A stretch of DNA of 47,895 nucleotides, from the IMG/VR virus record IMGVR_UViG_3300024346_000114, positions 1 to 47,895 of that record; one strand, written 5' to 3'. Under the pieces are notes generated by a model, which saw only the letters and a program-made list of their open reading frames with translations, was not told the DNA's origin and made no database searches. Numbering within the stretch: position 1 is the stretch's first letter; each line of letters begins with the position of its first letter. The position numbers were made by a program, and so were the translations under genes. The stretch comes from a virus. Below are positions 4,706 to 45,128 of the stretch, piece after piece.

Positions 4706-4785
4706 ACGGAATTATTCTAATAAATCAAGAATAAAACGCATAAAAAATATCGAAATAAAACTTCCCCAAATTAATGTTTTTTTCT

Positions 4786-4828: not shown

Positions 4829-4836
4829 ACGTAACC

Positions 4837-4884
4837 TTCACTAAAGCGAAACCTTCAAGGGCGAAACTCTTGTGAGGCGGAACC
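4837..4884. repeat. Three contiguous imperfect 14-17-bp tandem repeats
   Basis: On the plus strand the units are TTCACTAAAGCGAAACC, TTCAAGGGCGAAAC and TCTTGTGAGGCGGAACC, each ending in GCGRAAC(C). A partial fourth copy ending in ACGTAACC lies just before (4829-4836). Spacings are 17, 14 and 17 bp. They could be protein binding sites (iteron- or operator-like) or parts of a structured RNA. Confidence 0.5.
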
Positions 4885-4899
4885 GTTTCGTTATGAATT

Positions 4900-4928
4900 A
4901 TTATAATAACTTTATACGGGCATGTCAA
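4900..4928 (-). promoter_or_regulatory. Perfect consensus sigma70 promoter toward nrdBA
   Basis: On the minus strand TTGACA (4923-4928), a 17-bp spacer and TATAAT (4900-4905) match the sigma70 consensus at all 12 positions. Transcription should start near 4893. It implies recognition by a host housekeeping sigma of the usual proteobacterial type and early, strong expression. Confidence 0.85.
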
Positions 4929-4942
4929 CAAAAAAATAAAGA

Positions 4943-4971
4943 TTGACTTTACTGCCTGTCTCTGGTATTTT
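4943..4971 (+). promoter_or_regulatory. Divergent sigma70-type promoter for the sigma-factor operon
   Basis: TTGACT (4943-4948), a 17-bp spacer and TATTTT (4966-4971) form a good sigma70-type promoter. Only 8 nt separate the -10 box from the ATG at 4980, so the transcript would start at or within 1-2 nt of the start codon. Its -35 is 14 bp from the -35 of the opposing promoter. Confidence 0.7.
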
Positions 4972-4979
4972 ATTAAATA

Positions 4980-15056: not shown

Positions 15057-15074
15057 AGAGTTACACAGATAAAT

Positions 15075-25425: not shown

Positions 25426-25437
25426 TGTTTATTTATA
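25426..25437 (-). promoter_or_regulatory. Late promoter, extended box TATAAATAAACA
   Basis: TATAAATAAACA on the minus strand, ending 14 nt before the ATG at 25409-25411 and overlapping the stop codon of the upstream gene. The same 12-mer occurs twice more, before 34159. It extends the T4 late consensus TATAAATA. Confidence 0.65.
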
Positions 25438-27013
25438 TCGCTTTATATTCGTGCGTTCTTGTAGCCGTATTAGCATCTAAATTAATGACAATTGTATCGC
25501 TTTGCAAATAAAAGTCAGTTACACCCGCGCTAATGCCTGAAGCTCCACTTAAAAGGTCCGTTGCTCTTCCTGAATCCTCCATGAACGTCATAGCCTCACC
25601 AGCCGTTCCTTGAACTAACGAAACATCCAAAGAAGAGGTTACTGAGGTTATTTTTTTGTTTTCATTGCTGATATAAAATTCTTTTTTTCCTATTAAGTCG
25701 TAACCTATCTGACTTATAGCCTCAGATTCTACTTTTTTGATGTTGTCTGACGAGGTGCTCAATTGATATTTTAATGCCCCATCTAAGTCTTCAGTGTCAA
25801 ATGCATCACTATCAGAGAAAACCGTTTGTTCAGTTATTGATGCTGGTTTGTTTTTAGTTGAATTAACGGTTTTTGATTTTTCGTAAACATCTTCCGCTTC
25901 AAGGAACAGCCTCTGTACATACTGTAATGGCGTTGTAGTGTCATTTTCGTACAGCTGGTTTGTATTTTCCCACTCTGTAAATGTAGCATCAGCTTCAGCT
26001 TTGTATGTTACAGATAAAGAATAAGTTGTTTCCTTTTCTGAAAATTCTTTTGAACAAGAAAATACTTTTGATTCATTGTTACTTTCAGGATTGTTACTAA
26101 ATGTTGCAGTTAATGTAGCAGCTCTACCATCTACAGAAAAACCTTTTTCCGTGGATATTGGAGAGTCACCTGCCTGTTCTGTAATTAAGTCATCCAATTC
26201 TTGTTTTACAGCCAATTGCAATACGGAATTATTATTAGAACTTAAACAATTAAGATTTATTTCATATGTTTTATCTATATATCCTTTTTCGTTTACCGCA
26301 ATTGAATATTTTTTGGACCTACCAACCCCACCTGTATGTATTGTGTTTGAATTGAAACTTTCTGTTAGAGAGACAGATAAGTTTATAAGATCTATCTCCT
26401 CTGATAAATTGCCCTTGAATCCCTGATTGAATCTAGCATTTTCAGATATACCGTCGGTTTGATAACCTAAATCAGGTCTATTGTTAGAAAAATAATCAGA
26501 AAGAAATAATTTTATATTGCTTAGAAACGAATCCGATCCTTTGATGTATTTAATTGAAAGAGACCTATCGTAATTATACTCTCCTCCAGACCTGTCGAAA
26601 CTGTAAGTTTCAGAAAAAGATTCTAATAAATGCGGTTGCGGAATGTCAACTGCAGCTCCTTGGGGGTCATAAGGATCAGAGGGTTTGTATTCAGATAAAT
26701 TTTTATCTTCCTTTATGACTAATGTAGCTTTAAGAGAGCCAGCAAGAGTAGATTGGTCGAATGTTAAAGATGTAAGTGTTCCATTTGTAAAATCATCCCC
26801 ACCTATTCTTCCTACTACGCTTGGTTCGCTGAATACTTTCTTTAATGCTTCTACACCTGCAATCAATCCGATATCATCGTCTTCAAATTCAATATCGGAA
26901 ATATTTACAGTGTAAGTTCCTACAAAAGATAAACCAAAGGATTCCCTTTCGGTTAAATATTTATGATTTATTGTAGAAGAAGACGACTCTATATTATTAA
27001 TTATTAAACTCAT
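25433..27013 (-). CDS. Tail structural protein, first of two similar-sized neighbours
   Basis: This 526-residue protein is encoded directly after the tape measure gene (3-bp gap). It is rich in Ser, Asn, Asp and Glu, mostly predicted strands, with a helix near residue 55 (GVEALKKVFSE). Repeated sheet segments such as FSETYSFDRSGGEYNYDRSL and SKEFSEKETTYSLSVTYKA suggest stacked beta domains. Length and layout resemble the next gene, so a duplication is plausible. In siphoviruses this slot usually holds the distal tail protein, but these are larger than typical Dit proteins (about 250 residues) and I cannot confirm homology. Confidence 0.5.
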   Translation of the reverse strand: MSLIINNIESSSSTINHKYLTERESFGLSFVGTYTVNISDIEFEDDDIGLIAGVEALKKVFSEPSVVGRIGGDDFTNGTLTSLTFDQSTLAGSLKATLVIKEDKNLSEYKPSDPYDPQGAAVDIPQPHLLESFSETYSFDRSGGEYNYDRSLSIKYIKGSDSFLSNIKLFLSDYFSNNRPDLGYQTDGISENARFNQGFKGNLSEEIDLINLSVSLTESFNSNTIHTGGVGRSKKYSIAVNEKGYIDKTYEINLNCLSSNNNSVLQLAVKQELDDLITEQAGDSPISTEKGFSVDGRAATLTATFSNNPESNNESKVFSCSKEFSEKETTYSLSVTYKAEADATFTEWENTNQLYENDTTTPLQYVQRLFLEAEDVYEKSKTVNSTKNKPASITEQTVFSDSDAFDTEDLDGALKYQLSTSSDNIKKVESEAISQIGYDLIGKKEFYISNENKKITSVTSSLDVSLVQGTAGEAMTFMEDSGRATDLLSGASGISAGVTDFYLQSDTIVINLDANTATRTHEYKAI

Positions 27014-27016
27014 ATT

Positions 27017-30000
27017 TTAACCCTCTAATTTTGAAACTCTACCAACAAGACTATCCAAAACACCAGAAAGACTTTCTATATTTGAATCGTATTTTTGTAT
27101 AGTTTCTCTTAATTTGCTGTTAGCTGTTGCTAATTTTACTATATTTTGCTGTTGCACAGACACTGCTGTATTTGCGTCTGTAACAAACTTATTTATAACC
27201 TTGGTAGTCCCTACGAAAGGAGCAATGCTCCCCTTAGTTTGATCTAAAGCTTTTGCGAGCTCAGATGCGCTTGAAAGCATTTTCCCAAATGTCTCTGGAT
27301 ATTTTTGCTGAAAGCCTACCAAATTAGCAGCAGCCCCTTGGACAGCACCAAGTATTTTCTCCACTTCCTTCTGAACCTTACCACTCAAAGGATCACCTTC
27401 TGGACTAAGTTTATTTCCAATTGCATCAGGATCCGAAACTTTTGCACCATTCAGAATTGCTAGTCCTTCAGTTCTTTTTACTAATTGTTTTTCGTATTCC
27501 CGCTCTACTTTTACTAGATCAGAACCAGTAACATTCCCTTTTCTGCTATCTATCTTTACATCACCCAGACCTATTCCAGACTCCTTGAGTTTTAGCGCAC
27601 TCGCTTTTAATTGATCTGTTACGACATTTAATGCATCGAAAACGGAATTTTTAGTTCCACTATCCTGACTATTGAAGCCTGAACTTTCTGTCCTGCTTTT
27701 CAGCTTTTGAAATTGTTCTTGTAGTATTTTATTTCTTTTTATTTCATCAGGTAAACCTCGAATATTCTGTTTTACTTCATCTTTTCTTGCTTTTTTTGCT
27801 GCACCATCTTTTAGTATATTTGCAAGCCTATCTGTATTTACGGATTCTTGAAGTTTAAGAATTTTTGCTTGCAGTATATCCGCACCGACTCCAGCCGTCA
27901 ATAAGCTTTGTCTGTAGCTAGCTAAAGCACTTTTTGTTTTATCACCAGTTAATTCCACAAGGTCTTGTCCAAATGAATCAAAACCATCAAGAATTTTTTT
28001 TCCTCCATCAAATATAGTCTGATTTAAACTGTCTTCAGCTTCACCTCGTTTTTTTATTGCTTCTACAAAATCTTGATTTGCTTGGTCCAGTTCGTCAGCT
28101 GCTTTACCTATTTCTTCTGATAGATCCAATCCTGGGGTTTTTGCTTGCTTGTCTTTTAATTCTCTCAGTCTACCACCTGCAGAACTTTTACTTTTTCTTT
28201 TACTGAAAACATCATTTTCGCTTTGTCTCAAGTTATCTTGAGCTCCACCTACTCCACTTATGTCTTGCTGGCTTTTAGCTATGTCTGCTATAAATTGAGC
28301 GACTTTTCGTTCTCCCTCTGGAAGTAAGGAAACGATATTATCTAGGTTTCTTTTTAGATTTTCTCTGGATCTAGATATCTGATCTTGTAGAACTAGTTGT
28401 TTTTCTTCGTTTTGAAGAATTCTAGCTCTAACCCCTGAGATATTCAATCCATCTATTAATTCCTTTTGTCTTTGCTCTGATATTTTTTGTAGAGTTCCCT
28501 CTATCTGCTTGTTTATCTCAGCTATCTTAGTTTGGTTTGCCTTATTGTATACTTTCTTAATTCTTTCTAACTCCTTCGCAGCAGCTTTAGCTGCATCAGT
28601 TAATTCGGAACCAACAATAAATCCTTCTGAATCAAATACATCTTCCGACTTTAGTCCCTCCTCTCTGAACTCCCTTATTACTGAATCTATATCCGCCCTC
28701 TGATCTGCGGTTAAAAGACTAGTATCAATATTTTCAAAAGTTCTATCAGCGATATTCCCCGCTGATTTTCTCGCTTGAGTTGCAGCTCCAGCAGATTGCT
28801 CTTTTCCTTGCTTTAAAAGACGAGACCTATTAAAAGCTACTATCAGCTCCTTTCCACCTAAAACTATACCCGCGATAAGTCCAGCTTTGAGCAAGAAAGC
28901 TCCGCTTGCTAGATTGCTGGCAATAGTTCTTCCTAAAACTTTAGATCCATTAGCGAACGTCTTTTTTAAATTTGCTCCTCCAGCTTTAAAACCTACTCCT
29001 TTTATGGGACCTCCTTTAATGCCTTTAAAGGATCGTTGTGATGCAGTCCCAGCAAGACTTTTTAATTTGTCTCTTGGAATTAACTCACTTATTTGGGCAA
29101 CAGCAAAACCACCTGAGATTAAACTCTGACTAAAACTTGTTAGCGATTGAGTAAAAGTTTTGCTAGCTTCTAGTTGTTCAATTTGCTCTTTTGCATTTCT
29201 CTCAATAGCCTCAGAAAGAAGTTTTTTCTCTTTTGCTATATTGTCTGAAGCCTCTATTGATTCTAAGTTTGATTTTAATTCTCTATTTATAACGTCTACC
29301 TTATCTTGGGTCGCTGCGTTAGCAGAAGCTGTAGCTTTAGCATTTGCAATACCAATAGCCGCTTGTGACGCAATTGCAGCGCCAAATAGTCTCATAGAAC
29401 CACCTGCTCTGTCTGTGTCTTTTGAAAGTTTATCTACGCTTTTTGCAGATTTTCCTGTACTTTTTGCAGCTCTATCTATCTGTTGTTCTAACTTCTGGAT
29501 TTTTTGAGCAGAAACTGTCCTTTGATCAAATCCAGCAAAGCCTCCACCCAACTTGGCAAAGTTAGGAACATAGCCACTTGCGAAAACATCCTTTAAACCT
29601 CTTGGTTCGTCTCTTGTGTTTGTTACCGCTAAACCAGTAGGGTTTCTCCTATTAGCTAGTTTTTGGCTTTGATCTACCCTTATTTTTGATTCTGGTAAAC
29701 CAGCGGCTTTTTCTCTTTTTATAGCTTCACCTAAAGGTCCATTACCAACAAAGTTGGGGATATAACCAGAAGCAAAACCTTTCTTTCTTGCTTTTGTTGT
29801 TTTCTTTGGTACTCTTACTGTTGCCTTGCCTTTTTTATCTGGATTTCTCTCAAGTTTTAGTTCTTCATAAGAGCTTTTATATTTTCCTCTTAATTCGTTC
29901 AGAGATTTTTTTCTTAAGCTATCCGTATCTGGAGTAAACTTAAAATCACCTAACCCAGTAAAAGGTCCTTTTGAAGGAGTTGGACTTTGCCCGAAAAGAG

Positions 30001-32509
30001 CCTTTAGATTTGGGTTCTTACCCCTAACGTCAAAGTTCCCCCCTTTGTCCTTTGATGTATCTTTGCTTTTTACATTTAATGCGGTTGTAACAGAAGCGTC
30101 AAAGATAGCTCCCGCAGCAGACCTAATAGCTCCAGTAAAACCATCCGTCTCTTTTGTTCTCTTTATATCTTTTGGTTCACCTTTTGGCAACCCTAGAGAA
30201 TCTGTTATTTGCCTTGCAAATTTAAGTACTCTACCTTTAGCTAGTTTTTCAATTCTTTGCGGATCGAAATCTTTTTCGAACTTAGCTTCCAAGGCTTCTG
30301 TATTTTTACCGCTTATACCTTTAACAGGAAACTCATAATTTATAGGTTTTAAAATATCTGTTTTTTGAGAGTTCAATAGAGCGGTCGGCGAACTTGGTTT
30401 TCTTGGTATCAAAATTGAAGGCAAAGATCCACCAACTATCTTGTTTAGGTCAATAGTTTCTATTCTTTTTGAGTTTTCGGCTTTTTCCCATTCCTTATAC
30501 CTATTTCTAATAACCAAGCCGCCTTCCCCAACAATCTCGTCGTGAGTCGATTTAATTCCTTTAGCTTTAAATGGATAAAAGGGGGCGTCATTGTCTGATG
30601 TAAAAAGAGCTGAATCTGTAGCGTTTTTTGCTTTATTAACACTAACCCACTGGTTGTTTGTACCATACCTTGATTTTGGTAGTGGTGGTGGCTGTTTGTT
30701 GACAAAATTAGGAACAAACCCTTTTGAATAACGTGGTATAACAGCTGAGTCTCCGTTTCTACCAAAATTTGGTATTTCGGTTTCTTGGTTATTCATGACA
30801 AATCTTTTGCCTCCAATCTTACCTTTGCCCATCCTAGCCTTTACAGACGAGCTAGCCCCTAAAGATTTAGCCTCCGCTTCTTCTAACTTAAAATCATTCC
30901 GAGCAAAATTTGGTACATATCCTTGAGAAAATCTTTTTTTATTACCACCTGTGAACCCAGATCCAGATCCAAAACCAGTAACACCCCTAGACGCAGCTAA
31001 AGTAGCCAACCTTCTTAAAAGAGCCTCTTGTTGAGTAAGTAGTTGATTTTCTCTCTTTATAGCATCTATTACAGCTTGTTCTTTTTGTGCCTGAGATAAG
31101 GTTTGACTTGCTATGGACTTTCTAAGAGCATCATCTTGACTTAGCAAATTTACTATACCCTTTTCTATGCCTTTTATTTTTTCAGTTTCTGAACCTATCA
31201 AGGTTATAGACCTAAATCCCTCTATAGCGAACTTCCCAATAAGCTTTACGATTTTCAAAAAAGCGGTTGTAATTATAACAAGACCTGGGCCTGAAATGAA
31301 AGCACCTATACCTTGAAACAATCCTTTTATTACAACACTCCCGTTTTCACCACCTAGAGCACTACTTAGTGTCTCTGTTATCTTGCTTGCTACTGATATT
31401 AAATTAGTCAAAAGAGGAGCAAACGTAAGAGAACCTATTTTTTCAGCTAGATCAGTTAATCCCGCCACTAAAGAATTTATTTGAGCGGCTAAAGATTTGT
31501 TTAAAGTTTCATTTCTTTTGAAGGCTTGACCAGAAGCTGTTGCAGCCTCGTCAGCAGCTTTCCTAAATACAGATGTCTCGCTTGTCAAATCCTTTAATGC
31601 AGCACTAACCACGTTGATCTGGAAGACACCACCCGCGAGTTCTTTGATTTTGCTTACTACAGTAGGGTCTCCTATTCCTTCTATTGCATTAGATAAAGCT
31701 TGTAGTTTTTGCACTCCTGTTTGGGTAGCGTCTATTTCCACACCTAAAGACTGAAGATCAGCAATAGTAGTTCCTCTAGATAACCTTGTAAATATAGATT
31801 TAAATGCGTTACCTATAACTGCTCCACCCCTTGCTGTTCTTTGCTCAACAGCAGTTATCAAACCAAGTAGTTCGTTAAATGAAACACCAGCATCTTCAGC
31901 CGTCGAACCAGCTCGAGCTAATCCTTGAGCTAGGTCCTGCGCAGATACAGCGAAAGCGGTATCCACCGCAACAATTTTGTCTGTTACTTCATTGGCAGTT
32001 AATGCGGCTGAAGTAAAACCATTAATAGCTGCTGTTAAAGTTTTCACAGAATCCTCTGCTCCCAAACCAGATATTCTAGTTAATATTAATGCAGCTTGCA
32101 GTCTTTTCGTAGTTTCTTCTGCAGAAAGACCCTGTCTTGCTAATTCGGCTGCTGCATCAGCAACTGTCGAAAATGCTTGACCAGTGTTTTGAGCTACATC
32201 AAATATAGACTCCCTAAAATTCTGCAATACACTCTCAGACTGTTGAAATATAGCATTAATTTCTACCAATCTTTTTTGGACCTCTATTGTAGACTCAGCA
32301 AGTTTTCTAAAAGCTTGAGAGACGGTATTTAAAACGACTGTGGTAGCTCCAAACGCAAAGACCCTAGCTGTAGAAGCATCGAGAGATTTTTGGAACTCAG
32401 AGGCTTGACCTGTGATCCTTCCTAACGCTTGTTTTACCTGATTAGCAGATTGCTTTATGCTGTTAGGGTTCAGCCTTAAATCTGCGCTTAATTGTAATGA
32501 AGATGCCAT
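27017..32509 (-). CDS. Tail tape measure protein
   Basis: At 1830 residues it is by far the longest gene here. Residues 1-370 match the TMP core: long Ala/Gln/Ser-rich helices including GQAFSTVADAAAELARQGLS, NGFTSAALTAN and GGAVIGNAFKSIFTRLS. Hydrophobic segments at about 395-440 and 1210-1235 fit membrane-active parts. A middle region (530-985) holds four copies of G-Y/F-V/I-PNF (residues 530, 597, 915, 979) spaced 67 and 64 residues within each pair, flanked by Lys/Arg-rich low-order sequence. The last 700 residues are coiled-coil rich. At roughly 1.5 Angstrom per residue it would set a tail of very roughly 270 nm, an estimate only. The start codon overlaps TATAAATG. Confidence 0.95.
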   Translation of the reverse strand: MASSLQLSADLRLNPNSIKQSANQVKQALGRITGQASEFQKSLDASTARVFAFGATTVVLNTVSQAFRKLAESTIEVQKRLVEINAIFQQSESVLQNFRESIFDVAQNTGQAFSTVADAAAELARQGLSAEETTKRLQAALILTRISGLGAEDSVKTLTAAINGFTSAALTANEVTDKIVAVDTAFAVSAQDLAQGLARAGSTAEDAGVSFNELLGLITAVEQRTARGGAVIGNAFKSIFTRLSRGTTIADLQSLGVEIDATQTGVQKLQALSNAIEGIGDPTVVSKIKELAGGVFQINVVSAALKDLTSETSVFRKAADEAATASGQAFKRNETLNKSLAAQINSLVAGLTDLAEKIGSLTFAPLLTNLISVASKITETLSSALGGENGSVVIKGLFQGIGAFISGPGLVIITTAFLKIVKLIGKFAIEGFRSITLIGSETEKIKGIEKGIVNLLSQDDALRKSIASQTLSQAQKEQAVIDAIKRENQLLTQQEALLRRLATLAASRGVTGFGSGSGFTGGNKKRFSQGYVPNFARNDFKLEEAEAKSLGASSSVKARMGKGKIGGKRFVMNNQETEIPNFGRNGDSAVIPRYSKGFVPNFVNKQPPPLPKSRYGTNNQWVSVNKAKNATDSALFTSDNDAPFYPFKAKGIKSTHDEIVGEGGLVIRNRYKEWEKAENSKRIETIDLNKIVGGSLPSILIPRKPSSPTALLNSQKTDILKPINYEFPVKGISGKNTEALEAKFEKDFDPQRIEKLAKGRVLKFARQITDSLGLPKGEPKDIKRTKETDGFTGAIRSAAGAIFDASVTTALNVKSKDTSKDKGGNFDVRGKNPNLKALFGQSPTPSKGPFTGLGDFKFTPDTDSLRKKSLNELRGKYKSSYEELKLERNPDKKGKATVRVPKKTTKARKKGFASGYIPNFVGNGPLGEAIKREKAAGLPESKIRVDQSQKLANRRNPTGLAVTNTRDEPRGLKDVFASGYVPNFAKLGGGFAGFDQRTVSAQKIQKLEQQIDRAAKSTGKSAKSVDKLSKDTDRAGGSMRLFGAAIASQAAIGIANAKATASANAATQDKVDVINRELKSNLESIEASDNIAKEKKLLSEAIERNAKEQIEQLEASKTFTQSLTSFSQSLISGGFAVAQISELIPRDKLKSLAGTASQRSFKGIKGGPIKGVGFKAGGANLKKTFANGSKVLGRTIASNLASGAFLLKAGLIAGIVLGGKELIVAFNRSRLLKQGKEQSAGAATQARKSAGNIADRTFENIDTSLLTADQRADIDSVIREFREEGLKSEDVFDSEGFIVGSELTDAAKAAAKELERIKKVYNKANQTKIAEINKQIEGTLQKISEQRQKELIDGLNISGVRARILQNEEKQLVLQDQISRSRENLKRNLDNIVSLLPEGERKVAQFIADIAKSQQDISGVGGAQDNLRQSENDVFSKRKSKSSAGGRLRELKDKQAKTPGLDLSEEIGKAADELDQANQDFVEAIKKRGEAEDSLNQTIFDGGKKILDGFDSFGQDLVELTGDKTKSALASYRQSLLTAGVGADILQAKILKLQESVNTDRLANILKDGAAKKARKDEVKQNIRGLPDEIKRNKILQEQFQKLKSRTESSGFNSQDSGTKNSVFDALNVVTDQLKASALKLKESGIGLGDVKIDSRKGNVTGSDLVKVEREYEKQLVKRTEGLAILNGAKVSDPDAIGNKLSPEGDPLSGKVQKEVEKILGAVQGAAANLVGFQQKYPETFGKMLSSASELAKALDQTKGSIAPFVGTTKVINKFVTDANTAVSVQQQNIVKLATANSKLRETIQKYDSNIESLSGVLDSLVGRVSKLEG

Positions 32510-32527
32510 TTATAGCTATTACACATT

Positions 32528-33388
32528 TTAAGACAAAAGGTCTTCTGAGGTAAGCTTACCTTTTTTATTCATTTTTGCCTTCAGATCAGATACTCCCTCA
32601 GTAGTTTTCCCCTTGTTGTGTTTATTATCCGATTCTTCATATTTAAAAAGAGCTACAGCATCACTGGATACGTCTTCTGGTATATTGGTACAATTTTTAA
32701 ACTTACTAAGCAAAGTGTTAGCAATAACCATTAATCTTGATTGCAAATATGACAACTCCACAAGGCTTTTTCCAAAAATACAGAAAGGACTTTTGTTTTG
32801 CAATATGAAGGGCTCAAAAAAAGACGGCTCATAAGCCGCATTTATTAATGATTTTTCATCGAAGAAGACTCCAATCTTTTTAAAAAGCTGTTCATTATAT
32901 CTTTGCTTGATATCCTTTTTTATTTTTTTTGTAAAATTAGGATCTCTAAAAAAACACAATTCAGCATACCTTTTTGTTCTTGATGTAGAAGATAGGACTT
33001 CGGCACTAAAGGAAATTATTTTTTGTTTCTTTTCTTTGAGTATTTTTAATTCACTTCTTTCTTTCTGGAATGTATTTCTAAACATTTGCTTTTGATTTGC
33101 ATCAGCAATGTTGTTAGAAGCTTTCTCACTCTTATCTACAGTCCAAGTAAGGTCTTTTATTTGTTTTTCTTCTTCTTCTGACCAACCTCCATAACTTATA
33201 GCGTCGCTTAGAAGTGTTGACTCTGGCTTTATGCCAGATTTAACAAGATTATCGAAATCCTCTTTTTCAAACTCAGTTAAAGATAGTTGCTCTTCTATAG
33301 ATATATGTTTAAGGTAGATTTTTCCATCTGGAGTGTCTATATAACTATAACCCCTTAATATATCTAGCAATATTAAACTATAATCCAT
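32528..33388 (-). CDS. Tail assembly chaperone-like protein, downstream member
   Basis: This 286-residue, charged, largely helical protein sits immediately before the tape measure gene, the usual site of the gpG/gpT-type tail assembly chaperones. It opens MDYSLILLDILRGYSYIDTPDGKIYLKHIS, in which a small beta unit precedes a helical body, and ends in a Lys-rich tail (KAKMNKKGKLTSEDLLS). Its ATG follows the upstream TAG without any gap and in the same frame, so reading through one amber codon would fuse it to the upstream protein, as lambda gpGT does by frameshifting. The assignment is by position and organisation, not by motif. Confidence 0.55.
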   Translation of the reverse strand: MDYSLILLDILRGYSYIDTPDGKIYLKHISIEEQLSLTEFEKEDFDNLVKSGIKPESTLLSDAISYGGWSEEEEKQIKDLTWTVDKSEKASNNIADANQKQMFRNTFQKERSELKILKEKKQKIISFSAEVLSSTSRTKRYAELCFFRDPNFTKKIKKDIKQRYNEQLFKKIGVFFDEKSLINAAYEPSFFEPFILQNKSPFCIFGKSLVELSYLQSRLMVIANTLLSKFKNCTNIPEDVSSDAVALFKYEESDNKHNKGKTTEGVSDLKAKMNKKGKLTSEDLLS

Positions 33389-34159
33389 CTAACTAGAAAA
33401 GACCTCTTTCATACTCTTATCTATTTCTTTTTGGTTGTTGCCCATTTTATTATACCAAAGGTTAATAACCTTAGTTAGTTTATCAAAACTGCTATCAAAA
33501 ATATCTTTAATTAAGAGTATGTTTTCATCTTCAATATCTTCCTTATCTTCAGAAAGATAAAGAAATGATTGCCTTTTCTCATCAAAGCTTGCACCTTCAA
33601 ATACAGGGAAAACGTCAGTCTTTCCTTCTACCTCGTCCTCATAAAAAGAAAAGTTAAATATAAACCATTCTATCATTTTTGTTTCTGATTTAACGTCTGC
33701 AGTCTGACTATATTGATCTCTCAAGGAAGATTCGTATTTCATAATGATAGACTGAGCTTCCGCCATCTTCTCTTCAGCTTCTGCTAATTTGATTTTTTGT
33801 TCCTCATCAAGTTTTTTCGCAGCTCCGTAAAACTCTATAGTTCTAGAAGATTCGATGTTTAACAACAAAGCATCTTTTAGATCTTTCTCTAGCCCAACGG
33901 TATCCTCATTACTCGCAAACTTTCTTTCGAGCATAGCTCTAGTTAAGAAACCAGCATTAATATACTCGTTGTATTTTTGACCATAGAAAAACTCAGCCCT
34001 CTCAATGTCTGAAACAGTTGGTTTGTAAACAATAACCCTTTCTTTCTTTTTTTTCTTAGTCTTCTTAGTATACTCCTTTTCTCCGTTTTTCGTTTTTTTG
34101 GTATAAGGTGTTTCTACTACAATATCTCTTTCGATTTCAAATGAATAAAGTTCTTTCAT
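33389..34159 (-). CDS. Tail assembly chaperone-like protein, upstream member
   Basis: This 256-residue protein has a strongly basic N-terminal segment (KKTKNGEKEYTKKTKKKKK), a helical core, and a predicted coiled coil near 120-150 (KLAEAEEKMAEAQS). It lies between the tail tube gene with its small follower and the second chaperone-like gene, matching the lambda G position. It ends in TAG, one of only two TAG stops I count among 37 complete gene ends here, followed directly by an in-frame ATG. Two extended late-type promoter boxes lie before it, suggesting that a new late transcript for chaperones and tape measure begins here. Confidence 0.55.
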   Translation of the reverse strand: MKELYSFEIERDIVVETPYTKKTKNGEKEYTKKTKKKKKERVIVYKPTVSDIERAEFFYGQKYNEYINAGFLTRAMLERKFASNEDTVGLEKDLKDALLLNIESSRTIEFYGAAKKLDEEQKIKLAEAEEKMAEAQSIIMKYESSLRDQYSQTADVKSETKMIEWFIFNFSFYEDEVEGKTDVFPVFEGASFDEKRQSFLYLSEDKEDIEDENILLIKDIFDSSFDKLTKVINLWYNKMGNNQKEIDKSMKEVFSS

Positions 34160-34165
34160 AAAATG

Positions 34166-34195
34166 TGTTTATTTATATAATTATGTTTATTTATA
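34166..34195 (-). promoter_or_regulatory. Tandem late promoter boxes, two copies of TATAAATAAACA
   Basis: The minus strand carries the same 12-mer at 34184-34195 and 34166-34177, 18 bp apart, just before the ATG at 34157-34159. The nearer copy would start transcription only about 5 nt before the ATG if spacing follows T4 late promoters. Confidence 0.7.
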
Positions 34196-34198
34196 GTT

Positions 34199-34222
34199 AA
34201 AAATCAAATTTATTTTTTGATT
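34199..34222 (-). terminator. Weak terminator-like hairpin after the small tail gene
   Basis: AATCAAA (34216-34222) and TTTGATT (34202-34208) form a 7-bp stem overlapping the stop codon. Five T follow on the minus strand (34199-34203), directly before the tandem late promoter boxes. The low GC content makes it weak. Confidence 0.35.
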
Positions 34223-34599
34223 CCTAAAGAAAGAGAATCCCCGTCCTCTGATTCGAACTTAATTGCATTTATATAATCGCTCTCAATGTCCATATCATTT
34301 GAAATCAACAAACTATTAAAAAAATAAGAATATTTATATTCGTTTTTTATATGTACATCTAAGCCAAAGACCTTAGACGGATAGTAACCTCCAAAAAAGT
34401 TTCCAGAAGAATCAAAAATTTGACCATTTTCACCAGAAAAAGATATTCCAGTAGATTGCAGGTCATTGATATCTTCTCCGTCGAAAAACCCACTTCCTAA
34501 ATGTAATTTAAAAGAACTTTCTTTTTGCCGAATAGCAAAGGATAATTCAAATATGCCTTTGGAGAAAGATTCAGAATCTATTTTTTTTGTTTGCTGCAT
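34210..34599 (-). CDS. Small tail-region protein of unknown function
   Basis: I start this gene at the ATG at 34597-34599 (MQQTKK, 129 residues). A start 30 bp earlier would lie inside the terminator of the tail tube gene. The protein is mainly beta and Gly/Ser/Phe-rich (for example LHLGSGFFDGEDIND and SSGNFFGGYYPSKVFGLDV), without recognisable motifs. It is framed by a strong terminator upstream and a weak one with late promoter boxes downstream, so it may be expressed only by readthrough or from a promoter I did not identify. A minor tail protein is a guess from its place next to the tail tube gene. Confidence 0.55.
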   Translation of the reverse strand: MQQTKKIDSESFSKGIFELSFAIRQKESSFKLHLGSGFFDGEDINDLQSTGISFSGENGQIFDSSGNFFGGYYPSKVFGLDVHIKNEYKYSYFFNSLLISNDMDIESDYINAIKFESEDGDSLSLGIKK

Positions 34600-34612
34600 A
34601 CTCTTTTTTACA

Positions 34613-34646
34613 CAAAAAAACAAGCCCAACCTTTCGGAAGGGCTTG
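34613..34646 (-). terminator. Strong Rho-independent terminator after the tail tube gene
   Basis: On the minus strand CAAGCCC pairs with GGGCTTG (arms 34640-34646 and 34621-34627) around a 12-nt loop, followed by seven T (34614-34620). It ends 21 bp past the tail tube stop, as expected for a very highly expressed structural gene. Confidence 0.9.
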
Positions 34647-34667
34647 TTTAACACAACAATACAAAAC

Positions 34668-35765
34668 TTAAGCTTCTCTTCCGCTCCAGAAGACACCTTC
34701 TGTAGAGGTTGAAGCTCCAGCAATTTGAGCTGAGAAAGTTAAATCAACACTTTCGTTGTCGTCCAACGATGTGCTGAATGATTGGCTATCCAGAACAGCA
34801 TTTTTAAGCTGAAATACATGGACGGGAGATCCGAGTTTATCTTCGACTTTGATAACAACGTCAACCCTGTCGTCTCCAGCAGTTCCAGTGAGAACATACT
34901 CAAGTGAACCTTGTTTGAAGTCACTTACAAGAGCGCTCATGTTGACATTAACGTCAATTGGAAACTCAAGGTACTTTGTTCCGCGTTCTCTTCCGAGGCA
35001 CTCGACGTTTTCCCTTGCTAGTGGAATTTCCACGCTTGCGTTCTGAACACATATATTAGAAAGATCTACACCAATGTTGTCTCCAACTGAGATTTCATCG
35101 TTCTCGAATGTAACGCTTACATCTTGCGGTCTAAGTACAGCAAATGACATTGATCCAGTATCAGGAGCTGGCAAAGTGATAGTTCCAGCTTGTCTTGCGT
35201 AGGTGGAGTCAACAGAAGGGTTTTCTAAGGCGCTATGAGTTCCTGTAAAGAAAACAACGTTAGAAGCTTCTCCCTCGACATCAACTCTTGGAATTTCTCC
35301 TACAGCAAAGTTGGCTGTGTAAGATGTTAAGAATACGTTTCCGAATCCAATTGTATCGTGTTCAGCTTCGTCGCTAGCCCAAGAAGTGCTATTAAATGCG
35401 TCTTCTCCTTCTTTAACGGTAGCAACATAAAGGTTGCGCTCTCTTGCGTCTGGGTCTTCTGACAAAATTCCAGAAATAATCTGTGCGTTTAGGTTAGAAG
35501 TTGTGAGCCCGAGATACGTCTCGTTTTCTCCTCCTCCAAGGAAATAGCCTAGAGAAACTGTTGGCGTTACTTCTGAAGTAAGTTCTACTCCAATACGCGA
35601 TAGTTGACCGAACTCCCTAATGTCTTCTCTGGCTCCTGCCTGATCGACTTCAAAAGAGAAAGTATCTACCCTGTTTAATTGTGAAGCGGTGGTTAATCCG
35701 CCTCCCCAGCCAGTTGCAGAAGCAAAGACCGCTTTGTTTTGTGAAATGATTCTTGTTCTTGACAT
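34668..35765 (-). CDS. Major tail tube protein (probable)
   Basis: This is a 365-residue all-beta protein with no Cys-rich or enzymatic motif. Two halves of similar rhythm can be seen. Features such as RVDTFSFEVDQAGAREDIREFGQ, GVELTSEVTPTVSLGYFLGG and IGFGNVFLTSYTANFAVGEIPRVDVEGE match long-tailed phage tube or major tail proteins, in which short strands alternate with Gly/Glu loops. The C-terminal half (about 225-350) could be an Ig-like or second tube domain. Evidence of high expression is its own strong terminator and comparatively GC-rich, regular codon use, as for the major capsid gene. It precedes the chaperone and tape measure genes. No sheath gene lies next to it. Confidence 0.75.
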   Translation of the reverse strand: MSRTRIISQNKAVFASATGWGGGLTTASQLNRVDTFSFEVDQAGAREDIREFGQLSRIGVELTSEVTPTVSLGYFLGGGENETYLGLTTSNLNAQIISGILSEDPDARERNLYVATVKEGEDAFNSTSWASDEAEHDTIGFGNVFLTSYTANFAVGEIPRVDVEGEASNVVFFTGTHSALENPSVDSTYARQAGTITLPAPDTGSMSFAVLRPQDVSVTFENDEISVGDNIGVDLSNICVQNASVEIPLARENVECLGRERGTKYLEFPIDVNVNMSALVSDFKQGSLEYVLTGTAGDDRVDVVIKVEDKLGSPVHVFQLKNAVLDSQSFSTSLDDNESVDLTFSAQIAGASTSTEGVFWSGREA

Positions 35766-35797
35766 AATTGATTAGAATGTTTTTTATTTTTTACACC

Positions 35798-36676
35798 TTA
35801 TTGTAATCTTGGGAATCTATATGTTGATAAATCGAACTCCATCATGGCTACAGAAAAGTCCCTATTAATAAGTTCTCTCATTCTTTCAGAGTAAACTTTA
35901 GATACACTAACCTTATCCAAATGAGTAGTGACACCTCCTTCAAAGGTTTTTTGGAAAACCTCGTAATCATATGGAGCTTGCTTTATAGAATAAGAAAACC
36001 CATAAGGAAAGTTTTCGTAAGGTATGTGTGAAAACTCGTCTCTAGCAGAGTCTCTAAACTTAGAAATTATACTGTCTATTACAAAATTATCTCTAGTCAA
36101 AACCATAACTTGAACTCTGTTTTTAGTTTCTTCCATTCCACCAATACAATGCTCGTCATTTTTAGATGAAGCTAAAGAGATAAAACAAGCTGGCAAAAAA
36201 AATGTTTTTTCGTCTAGTTTTTCTGATTGGTTAAAAAAGTAAGGAGTGGTTTGACCATTTTCTAGAAAATCAGATTGAAGTATTGTGCTTACATCACTAT
36301 CGTTAGCTATGTAAGTGTTAACCTCTTTTACTGTAGAAGTTGCTGTTATATCCAAGTCTTTGCCAGAGGATAAAGGTAATACAACTCTGCCTTCTTGATA
36401 ATCCAAGAAAACACCTCCGTTACTGTCTGGATCGTCATTTATAAATTGTCCATTTATATAAACACCAGAATTTGGGCTTTCTACAGACTGATCCGCAACC
36501 AACTGCCTGAACTGACCTTGGTAACCTATAAAATCACTTGGTAAATCCGAATATTCCACATACTTAAAACTGTTTTCAAGACCTGTGACATATGCTTTTA
36601 TATCCTCTTTTAGTAGGGCATTTTCAAACCAAAGGTAAAAGCTAGATAATAGATTCTGATCGAACTGGGCTTTCAT
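35798..36676 (-). CDS. Neck/tail-completion region protein, unknown
   Basis: The 292-residue protein lies between the connector genes and the tail tube gene, where tail terminator or completion proteins are encoded. It begins with a helix (FDQNLLSSFYLWFENALLKED), has a beta core with VYINGQFINDD and GVFLDYQEGRVVLPL, and a conserved-looking RVQVMVLTRDNFVIDSIISKFRD segment. The order of helix, beta sheet and helix fits tail terminator folds only loosely, and the protein is longer than usual (130-200 residues). The identity is inferred from gene order. Confidence 0.5.
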   Translation of the reverse strand: MKAQFDQNLLSSFYLWFENALLKEDIKAYVTGLENSFKYVEYSDLPSDFIGYQGQFRQLVADQSVESPNSGVYINGQFINDDPDSNGGVFLDYQEGRVVLPLSSGKDLDITATSTVKEVNTYIANDSDVSTILQSDFLENGQTTPYFFNQSEKLDEKTFFLPACFISLASSKNDEHCIGGMEETKNRVQVMVLTRDNFVIDSIISKFRDSARDEFSHIPYENFPYGFSYSIKQAPYDYEVFQKTFEGGVTTHLDKVSVSKVYSERMRELINRDFSVAMMEFDLSTYRFPRLQ

Positions 36677-36678
36677 TT

Positions 36679-37281
36679 TTAAATTTTTCTTAAATTGTTT
36701 TTAAAATCTTCTATGATTTTAGATATATAAGGTGTTGTATCAAAGCTAGACCCTGTGCTTTTTGAAACCTGCAATCCAGAACCTGATCTCGAAGATGTCT
36801 TTGTATTACTACTATACACATAAGATCCAAGATTGCTTATACCTTTTTCTATTCCTTCAGCCCAACTCAAACCTCCAGCCCAAGGAATGGGTGTTGCAGA
36901 AAAAACCTCTTCTAAAGTTGGTATAGACATAGATACTTTGAACGAACCGCTTTGCTTTAAACTTCTTACGCTATAAGTGATTTTCCTATCGAATATTCTT
37001 TTGATATCTATTGTTGGCGTAGAGTTAGCTTCGAAACCTATGAAAGAAAACAAGTTTCCATATCCATTTGTAAGACCACTTATGTTGTTGGCATAAGGAC
37101 CTTGTTCTATCTCTCTTGTAACTGGATGAGATTCGAAGTCACCTTGAAGTTGCTTTTGTTTTTTTAGAATTTCTGGAGCTAATGATCTTCTTATTTGCAA
37201 AGCTAAAGATCTCTTGCTAGATGTCATTACATCTCTTAAAACAGCCCTTTTGTTTATGACTACTTTGACGTTTCTAGCCAT
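36679..37281 (-). CDS. Neck protein candidate (HK97 gp10-like position)
   Basis: This 200-residue basic protein has long N-terminal helices (KRAVLRDVMTSSKRSLALQIRRSLAPEILKKQKQL), a beta middle, and a PWAGGLSWAEGIEKGISN segment near 130-150. It ends with a helical tail, IIEDFKNNLRKI, after a Ser/Thr-rich linker. In siphoviruses the gene before the tail terminator usually encodes a gp10-type tail-completion protein with a similar helix-sheet-helix plan. The ATG overlaps the stop of the upstream gene by one base (TAATG), so the two are coupled. No diagnostic motif was seen. Confidence 0.5.
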   Translation of the reverse strand: MARNVKVVINKRAVLRDVMTSSKRSLALQIRRSLAPEILKKQKQLQGDFESHPVTREIEQGPYANNISGLTNGYGNLFSFIGFEANSTPTIDIKRIFDRKITYSVRSLKQSGSFKVSMSIPTLEEVFSATPIPWAGGLSWAEGIEKGISNLGSYVYSSNTKTSSRSGSGLQVSKSTGSSFDTTPYISKIIEDFKNNLRKI

Positions 37282-37736
37282 TAATTTTCTCTCTTCAAGT
37301 TTACCTGATAATACTGAGAGTCAAATGGACCTATATGTTTTGAATCTCCTTCTAAAGTAAACAGGTCTCCGTCTACTTCAACCCTAGATGAAATTTTCAA
37401 TTTTTCGTAACCCTCTTTTTTGACTTTTAGTCTAATCCTACCCTCTGAAGCGGATAAGTTCATTTGTGCTTTAGCATCAACGATTCTATCATCTTGGAAG
37501 TTTTCGTATTTTACAATGGCTTGTATTTTAACTTTTTCCATTGTATTCCTTGTGGTAGTGTGTCTAGTCGTTTGCTTTGGAGCACTATAAAGGGGGTTAT
37601 AGTCTTGAGGTAAGTCATTGGGAGAATCAGTATATTTCTTTATATACACATATATGTCCCTAAAAAAGGTATCCCTTACATTATCCAACTCAAGTTGAAT
37701 TTGCTTCTTTTCATCATCTGACAATAGAGAAGACAT
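37281..37736 (-). CDS. Head-tail connector (stopper-like) candidate
   Basis: The 151-residue protein has an N-terminal helix (DDEKKQIQLELDNVRDTFFR), then KQTTRHTTTRNTMEKVKIQAIVKY, then a small beta barrel: GRIRLKVKKEGYEKLKIS, SSRVEVDGDLFTLEGD and HIGPFDSQYYQVNL. The sequence V-D-G-x-x-F-x-L followed by a strand ending in a Y-x-V/L pattern is typical of head-tail joining or stopper proteins, which seal the portal exit after packaging. It is flanked by other connector genes. The identification is by fold pattern and order. Confidence 0.5.
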   Translation of the reverse strand: MSSLLSDDEKKQIQLELDNVRDTFFRDIYVYIKKYTDSPNDLPQDYNPLYSAPKQTTRHTTTRNTMEKVKIQAIVKYENFQDDRIVDAKAQMNLSASEGRIRLKVKKEGYEKLKISSRVEVDGDLFTLEGDSKHIGPFDSQYYQVNLKREN

Positions 37737-37737
37737 C

Positions 37738-38208
37738 TTATGCTATATTGTTTTTGTCTGAACCGTAAACCTGAATAGGTGATGATTTATAAACATTATA
37801 CTTAGAAACTAAGTCGTTAAGCTTGTCCATTGAATCATTTTTAAAAGAGTTCAAGGTTCTGGCTATAGAGTTTCTGTTTTGTTTTTGTATTGTTGTATCA
37901 CCTTCTTTTAACAACACCCAATCAGAGGAGCCAGCACAATTGCTCGTAATACCCCTCAGAACGTCCCTAGAGAGCTTCTCGTAATAATGTACAGAATATA
38001 GCTCAGTATAGATTGCCTCCTCTTCAGCGCAAAATGAGGGTAAAAAATTACCACTCACATCTATTTCAAAATCTTCATTGAGAAGAATGTTGACTTCGCC
38101 TATGTTAGCATCTAACCAACCAGACACATAAGATATCGGGAATCTATCTGTGTCTTCAGGAAATTCAGTATTTATTATTTGTTCTGCAAGCTCTCCAAGG
38201 TCATTCAT
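37738..38208 (-). CDS. Head-completion/adaptor candidate
   Basis: This 156-residue, mostly helical acidic protein is located between the capsid and connector genes, the usual adaptor position. It contains ISYVSGWLDANIGEVNILLNEDFEI near the N-terminus and a helix-rich second half (AEEEAIYTELYSVHYYEKLSRDVLRG) consistent with the helical bundle of gp6/gp15-type adaptor proteins that dock on the portal. Two cysteines are present but not as a motif. It ends one base before the ATG of the next gene. Confidence 0.48.
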   Translation of the reverse strand: MNDLGELAEQIINTEFPEDTDRFPISYVSGWLDANIGEVNILLNEDFEIDVSGNFLPSFCAEEEAIYTELYSVHYYEKLSRDVLRGITSNCAGSSDWVLLKEGDTTIQKQNRNSIARTLNSFKNDSMDKLNDLVSKYNVYKSSPIQVYGSDKNNIA

Positions 38209-38211
38209 ATT

Positions 38212-38718
38212 TTAAATATCGTTAAACAACCTTACAGTTTTTTTGTAGTTTGGGGAATTCTCGTCTATGATTGGTTGTATTGGGCTCGGCACATTCACAT
38301 TGTGCTTCCTAGCGTACATATTGAAAGATTCAATCAAATTTCTTTTTAATTCTCTGGTGCTCTGCTGTGGAGTAACTCCAACGTGCATGGCTAATGAAGT
38401 CATCTCAGAAACAGACATATCTTCTAACTTACTAGCAAAAATATCTTCATTTAATGTTCTGTATGGGTTCATTTCTTGAATGCCCAGAAGATCTTCCAAA
38501 TCTCTAGCTTGATCTATTTGCTTTTGTTTTTCACTTCTACTCTTTCCGTCAACCATCTCAAAGGCTTCTAATGATTCCTTTTGTTTTCCAGTGTCATCTT
38601 CTTGTATAGCGTGACCAATAGAACCCTCTACATCTAAAAGTTCTTTTAATTCCTTTTCCCTAGCTTCTTTGTTAGTTTTTTTGCTAAGTTTTTTGCCTTG
38701 TTTTTTATTATCGCTCAT
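38212..38718 (-). CDS. Structural-cluster protein with a C-terminal helical (SAP/Rho-N-like) segment
   Basis: This 168-residue protein has a very charged, probably disordered N-terminus (residues 1-75, many Lys and Glu). The C-terminal segment NPYRTLNEDIFASKLEDMSVSEMTSLAMHVGVTP continues with a basic stretch, REL-K-RNLIESFN. The pattern L-x-x-M-S-x-x-E-x-x-x-L-A-x-x-x-G followed by R-x-x-LK-x-x-LI resembles short helix-extended-loop-helix nucleic-acid binding motifs of SAP or Rho-N type. A role in the neck or DNA-end binding is possible. It follows the terminator of the major capsid gene, and I did not identify a separate promoter for it. Confidence 0.5.
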   Translation of the reverse strand: MSDNKKQGKKLSKKTNKEAREKELKELLDVEGSIGHAIQEDDTGKQKESLEAFEMVDGKSRSEKQKQIDQARDLEDLLGIQEMNPYRTLNEDIFASKLEDMSVSEMTSLAMHVGVTPQQSTRELKRNLIESFNMYARKHNVNVPSPIQPIIDENSPNYKKTVRLFNDI

Positions 38719-38749
38719 AACATATGATATGTATTACACCAAAAAAATC

Positions 38750-38786
38750 AAAAAAAAAGAACCGCCCCTCTAAAGGAACGGTTCTT
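38750..38786 (-). terminator. Strong Rho-independent terminator after the major capsid gene
   Basis: AAGAACCG (38779-38786) pairs with CGGTTCTT (38757-38764) on the minus strand around a 14-nt loop and runs into an uninterrupted T-tract (38751-38758). It lies 18 bp past the capsid gene stop and isolates the high-level capsid transcript. Confidence 0.9.
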
Positions 38787-38803
38787 GTAATTGTTTTAAG
38801 CGA

Positions 38804-39958
38804 TTAGGCGACGATTCCCACAAGGGCTTTATCGTCGATGCAGAGGCGACCCTCTTCAATCTTACCAAACCAACCAATCTTCTCTTGGCGTACGGAGAAC
38901 TGATCGTCAACTTGTACGTTGAACGCGTCAGATGCACCTTCGTCAAGAACGACTGGGCGGATTAGTGACTCTTTGCTACGGTCGATACCAATAAGAAGCT
39001 CGTCAGTTGAACTGAAGCCAGCGTCAGGACTTGATCCTTGTCCACCAGATGTAACTGTAGAGGCATCGCCAGCGTCGATTGCAAGGGCGATCTTATTGAA
39101 ACGTTGCTCGATACCCATTTCAAGGACTTCAATGATATTGATGCCGTAGAAGTTAGGGAGTCCAGCTCCGCTGTAAAGGGTCTCACGAAGGCTCTCAGGA
39201 GCGCTAACAGCACTTTCTGTAGAGGTGTTTGAGCTACCCGCTGTTCTTGCACCACCTTCAGTATTGATTGGGTTGTAAGACATTGAGCGAAGCTTCTCGA
39301 CCATCTCTGGTGAAACCATAAGGTCAGTTACGCCAACGTTAGCTCCACCAACAGGAGTACCACCAGCCCAAGAGCTATTAATGCGCTTGGATTTAGTGAT
39401 CAATCTGTTAAGGTCATCAAGAATGATGCGACCTTGGTTGTTGGAGGAAATAATGCGCTTGTTTGTGGTTCCGTTGCCCTTAATGAGAGCGGAAGCCAAA
39501 ACGTTGAACGCTGTGCGCTCTTGCTTAAGCATTACTTCTTGAGCCATTCTTGTGAATGTTTTGCTGACAACATCAACCCTAGCTTTTCTAGCATACTTGC
39601 GGTCAAACGCAAGAGCACTGTCAATAGTGTAGGTATTGAATTTAAGCTCATTGTGAGCTGGAAAGACTTGGTTATAAGGAAGTCCACCCGCAACTTGTTG
39701 AGAGTAAATTTGAATATAATCTTCGTCTGTAATGTCGTGGAAGAGGTCTAGAGGGAGTGACGGATTGTCGTCCCACTCATATGTCATTGTACTAAAGAGG
39801 TTGCCAATTGTGGTGGCGTTGTTAATAACCTCGTTAACTACAGGTCCAATAAGAGAAGCTACAGCTGCCTGTGCTTCGTAAGACTCTTCACGATTTGATG
39901 AAGCCATAGCGCGAACTAGGGCTAATTGATCTTCTGTTCTTTTAATTGTAATCTTCAT
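38804..39958 (-). CDS. Major capsid protein (HK97 fold)
   Basis: The protein has 384 residues. It fits HK97-fold capsid proteins in length, gene order (after protease-scaffold and decoration genes) and features: an N-terminal helical arm, an E-loop-like segment (DITDEDYIQIYSQQVAGGLPY), a spine helix region (RTAFNVLASALIKGNG), GVTDLMVSPEMVEKLRSM in the P domain, and a beta-rich A domain near INIIEVLEMGIEQRFNKIALAID. The GC-richer, regular codon use and strong terminator fit the most abundant virion protein. I did not see an obvious TATAAATA box directly before it, so transcription may come from upstream. Maturation by the upstream protease is expected. Confidence 0.88.
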   Translation of the reverse strand: MKITIKRTEDQLALVRAMASSNREESYEAQAAVASLIGPVVNEVINNATTIGNLFSTMTYEWDDNPSLPLDLFHDITDEDYIQIYSQQVAGGLPYNQVFPAHNELKFNTYTIDSALAFDRKYARKARVDVVSKTFTRMAQEVMLKQERTAFNVLASALIKGNGTTNKRIISSNNQGRIILDDLNRLITKSKRINSSWAGGTPVGGANVGVTDLMVSPEMVEKLRSMSYNPINTEGGARTAGSSNTSTESAVSAPESLRETLYSGAGLPNFYGINIIEVLEMGIEQRFNKIALAIDAGDASTVTSGGQGSSPDAGFSSTDELLIGIDRSKESLIRPVVLDEGASDAFNVQVDDQFSVRQEKIGWFGKIEEGRLCIDDKALVGIVA

Positions 39959-39972
39959 GTTCGTGATTTATT

Positions 39973-40560
39973 TTAGAGTTCGATTTTTACGATTGCGTAG
40001 TCACCTGCGAAAGGATCGGCAGAACCTTCTCCTTGGGTTTCTCTGCTTCCAGTTGCAAGAACGAGTCCTACAACAGCTTCACTAGCGCCAGCTGTACCAA
40101 GCTTACCACCATCGCGGACAGCAAGTTGAGACATTGGAGCAGGAATAGTACCGCCTTCAAAAGCTCCTTCAGTAAATGTGAAAGAACCCTTAGAAGCTAC
40201 AGGCACAGCCTCACCAGAGACTACACACTGAAGTTCAGCTTTTTTCTCTGGATAAAAACGAATTTTTTCTCCGTTTTCGTCCTCTTCGCGTACATCACGC
40301 AGAAGAATTCCCAATCCTACATCCCCAGAGTCAGCGAGCTGAACTTTGTGAGGAACGTTTGCATACATAGATGTAGCATTTCCAATAGCGTTAAGGAAAC
40401 CCCCTTCGCCGTATTCTACAAGATCTTGGTTAAGGTCAGCTTTAGTGATCTTAACAATGAGTCCTGCACCTACTTCGCCTCCGTCGAATGAAAACATGTT
40501 GATAACATCGGTTTCACTGTAATGACGGAATGGCAATAGTTTAGTTATATCGTTAGCCAT
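39973..40560 (-). CDS. Capsid decoration/stabilisation protein (probable)
   Basis: The protein has 195 residues and is mostly beta, with Gly/Ala-rich turns: MFSFDGGEVGAGLIVKI, YANVPHKVQLADSGDVGLGIL, VVSGEAVPVASKGSFTF and EAVVGLVLATG. This matches small decoration or head-stabilising proteins encoded directly before major capsid genes, and recalls DUF2190-type proteins with V-x-x-G-x-x-V-P-V-x-x-x-G. Codon use is GC-richer, like the capsid gene. A TATAAATA box lies only 5 nt before its ATG, so its late transcript would begin very near the start codon. Confidence 0.7.
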   Translation of the reverse strand: MANDITKLLPFRHYSETDVINMFSFDGGEVGAGLIVKITKADLNQDLVEYGEGGFLNAIGNATSMYANVPHKVQLADSGDVGLGILLRDVREEDENGEKIRFYPEKKAELQCVVSGEAVPVASKGSFTFTEGAFEGGTIPAPMSQLAVRDGGKLGTAGASEAVVGLVLATGSRETQGEGSADPFAGDYAIVKIEL

Positions 40561-40565
40561 AATTT

Positions 40566-40573
40566 TATTTATA
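40566..40573 (-). promoter_or_regulatory. Late-type promoter box TATAAATA before decoration and capsid genes
   Basis: TATAAATA on the minus strand followed by AAATTATGG, so it ends 5 nt before the decoration gene ATG. With T4-like spacing the transcript would start at about the A of the ATG. It is well placed to drive both decoration and capsid genes. Confidence 0.55.
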
Positions 40574-42129: not shown

Positions 42130-42158
42130 GAAATAAATTTACACTAAAAATCTAATTA

Positions 42159-44686: not shown

Positions 44687-44747
44687 ATTATACACAAGAA
44701 AACCTAAAATTCAAAAGTTAACTTTTAACTTTGAAAAGTCGACTTTT
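44687..44747 (-). promoter_or_regulatory. Promoter-like region with two 14-bp palindromes before the portal gene
   Basis: AAAAGTTAACTTTT (44713-44726) and AAAAGTCGACTTTT (44734-44747) are both perfect palindromes, spaced 21 bp start to start (two helical turns), and differ only at the central four bases. A perfect -10 box TATAAT (44687-44692) lies 5 nt before the portal ATG. TTGAAT overlaps the inner palindrome edge at -35 distance with a 16-bp spacer. Operator-like control is plausible. A terminator for the upstream gene is the alternative. Confidence 0.5.
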
Positions 44748-45108: not shown

Positions 45109-45128
45109 AGTTTCTATTACACTGTAAA

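Follow-up and report, generated by a model that had tools for sequence, protein, structure and literature searches.

A predicted sigma2-sigma4 factor and a candidate -35-less late promoter, GTGTA[AT], in a group of uncultured tailed phages

In the phage group examined here, a phage-encoded sigma factor probably reads -35-less late promoters of the form GTGTA[AT], a reading of the genomes that would make most late mRNAs leaderless and would add a second promoter class to one of the host sigma70 type. The window referred to throughout is the whole 47,895-nt stretch of DNA analysed (IMG/VR virus record IMGVR_UViG_3300024346_000114, positions 1 to 47,895). A sequence-only reading of this window had proposed a T4-like late switch in a phage with a non-contractile tail module; the outline of that proposal survives, in that a phage sigma factor is found beside putative -35-less promoters of virion genes and a siphovirus-like tail module, but both the motif and the factor are other than those it had named.

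The window and its relatives

With the sigma factor and the putative major capsid protein (MCP) of the window as queries, dozens of viral contigs were recovered, the MCP (38804..39958, minus strand; named by gene order and lacking a PHROG match) returning 42 related viral contigs. Including the window, 17 genomes or large fragments were examined over their full length, and a sigma profile scan of IMG/VR gave 284 confirmed sigma-bearing relatives, with 80 loci kept. The group to which the window belongs is large, uncultured and mostly marine, and consists of tailed phages (bacterial viruses) with a sigma2-sigma4 factor of their own. In a search of 50,697 phage records, the window sigma factor, the window capsid protein, the capsid protein of the relative G016 and the sigma factor of the relative G003 found nothing at their cut-offs, the sigma factor of G021 gave one weak partial match (E 4e-3), and no cultured relative of the group was found by the queries tried. 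A capsid protein 68% identical to that of the window occurs in one MAG contig binned as Flavobacteriaceae; we did not adopt a Flavobacteriaceae host, since a bin assignment by itself is weak evidence and the promoters are of a different type. Promoters of the Bacteroidota type (TTGACA followed by TAnnTTTG) were ruled out, with 2 sites versus about 50 TATAAT-like sites at N16-17.

The names tape measure, terminase, RNR and Hsp20 come from profile matches, and other gene names from gene order and size. Gene calling simply took the longest ORF, a rule under which some start codons may be wrong and, with them, the motif distances. An Hsp20-type small heat shock protein gene (1451-1888) lies beside the RNR genes.

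The phage sigma factor

The putative sigma factor of the window is a 196-aa protein (4980..5570, plus strand) with a predicted sigma2 domain (residues ~1-95), a linker and a sigma4-like helix-turn-helix domain (~118-191). Its AF2 model (mean pLDDT 80, pTM 0.47) contains a C-terminal four-helix domain with a helix-turn-helix, and the best 50 Foldseek matches in the PDB are sigma factors or complexes (sigma32, ECF sigmaE/L, sigB, WhiG), the best at E 1.2e-3. None of these matches lies below E 0.001 and the TM-scores are low, which probably reflects uncertainty in how the two sigma domains are placed relative to each other, as the pTM indicates. The predicted chain nevertheless joins sigma2 and sigma4 domains, the composition of the sigma70 superfamily; for most group members the Pfam Sigma70_r2 match is weak or missing. 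The protein is conserved in 14 of the 17 genomes, the exceptions being two short fragments (G005 and G017) and the 211-kb G016, in which the GTGTA[AT] motif is present and the sigma profile finds nothing. A weak sigma-like stretch matching phrog_351 (71517-71744 of G016, locus L049) falls within a 168-aa protein (71466-71972), a candidate reader of AGTGTAAAT.

The description of this protein as gp55-like holds only insofar as a small sigma factor is indeed encoded and conserved. The gp55 profile phrog_234 matched neither the window protein nor five relatives at E 0.1, and found no match in 12 genomes, which rules out gp55 homology; T4 gp55, the positive control, matched it at E 2.9e-69. In the gp55 family the sigma factor is sigma2-like and has no sigma4, for which gp33, a short and divergent protein, serves as a mimic; this family trait is contradicted by the predicted sigma4 domain and by the Foldseek alignments of the chain with sigma2-sigma4 factors. 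Furthermore, the clamp-binding C-terminal end of gp55 is hydrophobic and acidic (PMC2988020), and the C-termini of the group's sigma factors are mostly basic (NERIKL, NEKIKF, KKNA), so that a gp55-type clamp-binding tail is absent. We regard the 4980-5570 product as a predicted sigma2-sigma4 factor, not gp55.

Searches of 12 genomes for T4-type and bacterial beta-type clamps (PF02916 and PF00712) returned no match, in records that are perhaps fragments (the window itself is 48 kb) and with no control genome passing the PF02916 cut-off. A multi-subunit RNA polymerase was not found with PF00623, for which the controls worked, nor a T7-type polymerase with PF00940, for which no control gave a signal.

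The GTGTA[AT] motif upstream of virion genes

GTGTAA was the most enriched 6-mer upstream of genes in the first 12 genomes (103 versus 8.8 expected), and in all 17 genomes the number of GTGTA[AT] sites upstream of genes lay above every one of 100-400 shuffles. Over the window as a whole GTGTAA occurs at chance level (21 versus 21.3), which places the signal in the positioning of the motif. As controls, the same procedure applied to the late region of T4 yielded TATAAATA (12 versus 0.5), and applied to phage Staley it yielded the Shine-Dalgarno sequence GGAGGT; GTGTAA was absent from the top upstream words in T4, P-SSM2, HTVC008M and Staley. The motif is directional, with 138 sense versus 28 antisense sites in the first 12 genomes, and its spacing to the ATG is narrow: 34 sites lie at 8 nt, 30 at 9, 14 at 10 and 8 at 11, with one at less than 8 and a further class of sites 21-28 nt before the start. 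Among 77 non-redundant GTGTA sites there is no -35 signal, and A/T predominates in the ten bases 3' of the motif. The motif precedes 17-24% of the genes located after a gap or a divergent neighbor, compared with 2.8% of tightly packed genes. The pattern is that of a -35-less promoter class: a conserved -10-like element, lacking a -35 partner, enriched before virion genes at the starts of transcription units, and found across the group at the transcription-unit starts of the RNR genes too.

On the minus strand of the window, a 120-aa gene with its ATG at 45108 has GTGTAA 8 nt upstream (45117..45122; 2/2 distinct orthologous upstream regions). The portal-like gene 42696-44681 has GTGTAT(AAT) at the same distance upstream (44690..44695), with the motif in 9/9 distinct orthologous upstream regions; the portal site in the window also fits sigma70 (TTGAAT-N16-TATAAT). 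A distance of 9 nt separates GTGTAA from both the protease/scaffold-like gene 40591-42129 (42139..42144; 14/14 orthologs) and the tape measure gene 27017-32509 (32519..32524; 11/11 orthologs), the latter assigned by phrog_4211 at E 1.2e-40. Two further minus-strand sites sit 3' of terminator-like hairpins with T runs, one at 38734..38739, after a hairpin of the intrinsic-terminator type and 15 nt before gene 38212-38718 (3/3 orthologs), and one at 34608..34613, directly after its hairpin and T run and 8 nt before the ATG at 34599 of a 129-aa gene (7/11 orthologs). Greater distances separate the minus-strand sites at 35791..35796 and 15061..15066 from the tail-tube-like gene 34668-35765 (25 nt; 13/16 orthologs) and the fibre-like gene 12061-15039 (about 21 nt; 9/9 orthologs), respectively. 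Genes that are co-transcribed are almost free of the motif, as seen among orthologs of the MCP (0/17), the decoration gene (0/21) and gene g36676 (0/18), and GTGTAW precedes 0/12 orthologs of the chaperone-like gene. Upstream of the RNR small-subunit gene, GTGTA[AT] is present in 32/32 distinct orthologous upstream regions, and it is missing from the last 45 nt upstream of the window's own copy.

The motif might instead be a promoter for the host polymerase with another host sigma factor or some other phage-encoded factor, in which case the phage sigma factor would serve elsewhere, and both the occurrence of the motif in G016 and the resemblance of GTGTAAT-type sites to a weak -10 element (TGTAAT) speak for such an arrangement. 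We consider this unlikely, because 78 of the 80 sigma-bearing loci exceed the motif expectation (180 versus 26.9) and because the motif hardly varies among phages with sigma factors as little as 29% identical to that of the window. We also weighed a role in the mRNA, where GTGTA[AT] would act as a translation-initiation signal in place of the Shine-Dalgarno sequence. The sharp 8-11 nt spacing to the ATG is like that of a ribosome-binding site, and there is no Shine-Dalgarno excess in the group's genomes, in which Shine-Dalgarno-like sites are near background. Such a role is improbable, however, given that most genes, including 97% of the tightly packed ones, do without the motif, that the 21-28 nt spacing class exists, and that in places the motif directly follows a terminator, leaving little room for another promoter; nor does GTGTAA pair with the CCUCC anti-Shine-Dalgarno sequence of 16S rRNA.

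In the literature, which our searches covered in part, no phage-promoter paper was found for GTGTAA or its heptamers, the search for marine-metagenome promoter motifs gave only a Listeria phage paper, and the titles and abstracts retrieved for leaderless late phage transcription yielded nothing on the group.

Host-type sigma70 promoters

A host-type sigma70 class (TTGACA-N16/17-TATAAT) is also present upstream of genes in the group. In the window, a sigma70-like promoter lies upstream of the sigma gene on the plus strand (4943..4971), composed of TTGACT (4943-4948), N17 and TATTTT (4966-4971). Most relatives in the window's clade carry TTGATT or TTGACA, a spacer that is mostly N16 and a TATAnT-like element upstream of the sigma gene, and almost never GTGTA; in a more distant clade the region upstream of the sigma gene resembles the coding sequence of its neighbor, as within an operon. 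The RNR small-subunit genes are divergent from the sigma gene in the window (intergenic region 4617-4980) and in relatives, and their upstream regions contain a sigma70-like promoter in 19/32 cases beside the GTGTA[AT] found in all of them, as if RNR were transcribed from an early promoter and also from a late one.

The TATAAATAAACA and TATAAATA motifs

The promoter motif proposed from the window alone was TATAAATAAACA, with TATAAATA as its core. The counts behind that proposal were confirmed: TATAAATAAACA has exactly three copies in the window, all on the minus strand and where they had been placed, and TATAAATA is beyond chance both overall (16 versus 5.9 expected) and at most 70 nt upstream of genes (6 versus 0.62 in upstream-region shuffles, with 0/400 shuffles reaching 6). 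Its placing before genes stood up in part. Intergenic sites are limited to the minus-strand TATAAATA at 40566..40573, which precedes the decoration-like gene 39973-40560 by 5 nt, and to the two minus-strand copies of TATAAATAAACA at 34166-34177 and 34184-34195, which lie 18 bp apart and form one tandem repeat. The other upstream sites are in or overlap coding sequence: the minus-strand TATAAATAAACA at 25426..25437 lies over the stop codon of gene 25433-27013, and the core at 23881-23888 lies within the upstream coding sequence 23834-25411. A TATAAATA is also found within the sigma gene itself (5501-5508).

The motif did not extend beyond the window. Across orthologs, TATAAATA precedes the decoration gene in 1/21 distinct upstream regions, and the chaperone-like gene that follows the tandem 12-mers in 0/12; the gene downstream of the 25426-25437 site has no ortholog among the compared loci. 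Of the other genomes, 15 of 16 showed no clear excess, their upstream TATAAATA counts being matched by at least 16% of shuffles, and G016 displayed a modest one (6 versus 2.43, reached by 2/100 shuffles). None of the genes in these 16 genomes has TATAAATAAACA upstream, and the 12-mer, being also unconserved at orthologs, is ruled out as a group-wide motif; its copies are a local feature of the window, not common to relatives, and the TATAAATA at 40566-40573 is variable A/T filler. Both tandem copies of TATAAATAAACA overlap or adjoin a sigma70-like promoter on the minus strand (34180..34207; TTGATT at 34202-34207, N16, CATAAT at 34180-34185) before the chaperone-like gene 33389-34159, and 11/12 orthologs of this gene have such a promoter. 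The regions upstream of the decoration and capsid genes are A/T-rich (TCTAAC...ATT-ATG for the decoration gene in many relatives), and neither promoter class is present in them.

Despite the three exact 12-mers and the TATAAATA excess upstream of window genes, a T4-type late system in which a gp55-like sigma factor reads TATAAATA(AACA) before structural genes is very improbable, since TATAAATA is unconserved at orthologs, two upstream sites lie inside coding sequence, one over a stop codon, the tandem pair sits on a conserved sigma70-type promoter, and neither gp55 nor gp45 is matched.

Proposed mechanism

In the preferred reading, in which the phage sigma factor reads GTGTA[AT], host sigma70-type promoters would serve the early genes, among them the sigma gene, which would be expressed early from its own promoter of this type. 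Its product would redirect host RNA polymerase to GTGTA[AT], placed at the -10 position, and transcription would begin about 8 nt 3' of the hexamer. Such a start would leave most late mRNAs leaderless or nearly so, which fits the near-background level of Shine-Dalgarno-like sites. A single sigma factor with its own sigma4 domain would replace the split gp55 and gp33, in a geometry like that of a T4 late promoter.

We infer recognition of the motif by the sigma factor from their co-occurrence, and the start sites and timing likewise; since both motif and factor are near-universal in the group, this co-occurrence is inseparable from shared ancestry. Several observations weigh against the preferred reading. 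The GTGTA sites show no -35 element, the usual contact of a sigma4 domain. The RNR small-subunit gene bears the motif in relatives although it is not a virion gene, and often has a sigma70-like promoter as well. Some motif sites, such as the portal site of the window, fit sigma70 too, and G016 keeps the motif while the sigma profile fails there.

If the preferred reading is true, a -35-less late promoter is served by a sigma factor that retains sigma4, and late mRNAs are predicted to be leaderless genome-wide, which bears on translation initiation without Shine-Dalgarno sites. It would also allow late genes of unknown function to be marked in metagenomic contigs by sequence alone. For a group represented by 284 sigma-bearing IMG/VR stretches and with no close match among the cultured phages searched, it offers a promoter code that can be tested. 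The broader proposition, that a deep uncultured group couples a single-chain sigma2-sigma4 factor to -35-less GTGTA[AT] promoters and mostly leaderless late mRNAs, with T4-like logic and no recognizable clamp as searched, is in our assessment evenly poised between right and wrong.

Comparison with known systems

Phage SPO1 switches promoter classes during infection by means of phage sigma factors, and its middle and late promoter classes have both -35 and -10 elements. The group resembles this type of cascade in encoding its own sigma factor and differs from it in promoter sequence. The predicted fold of sigma2, linker and sigma4 is shared with ECF and group 3/4 bacterial sigma factors (sigmaE, sigma32, FliA/WhiG), whereas the presumed target lacks a conserved -35 element and most members have a weak Sigma70_r2 match or none.

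The T4 late promoter is -35-less, about 8 bp in length and approximately one helical turn upstream of the start, with A/T-rich sequence downstream (PMC2988020). Like the T4 late system (gp55, gp33 and gp45), the group has a -35-less element of ~8 bp before virion genes, about one helical turn from the predicted start and followed on its 3' side by an A/T-rich stretch. It departs from T4 in the sequence of the element, GTGTA[AT] rather than TATAAATA, in the single predicted sigma2 and sigma4 chain that stands in place of the split gp55/gp33, in lacking matches to gp55 and to both of the clamp types searched, and in spacing, which is mostly 8-11 nt before the start codon in the group and 14-28 nt for the T4 sites in the stretch tested. 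The T4-like pelagiphage HTVC008M (KC465899, 1-50000; locus L211) is enriched in TATAAATA (6 versus 0.3), and 4 of its 6 upstream sites lie 5 nt before a start codon, a near-leaderless geometry comparable to that of the group, which suggests that HTVC008M late mRNAs are near-leaderless too. HTVC008M, a contractile-tailed T4 relative, uses TATAAATA and not GTGTA[AT]; when the two are aligned on the start codon, the TGTAA of a GTGTAA at 8 nt occupies the positions of TATAA in an HTVC008M TATAAATA site at 5 nt.
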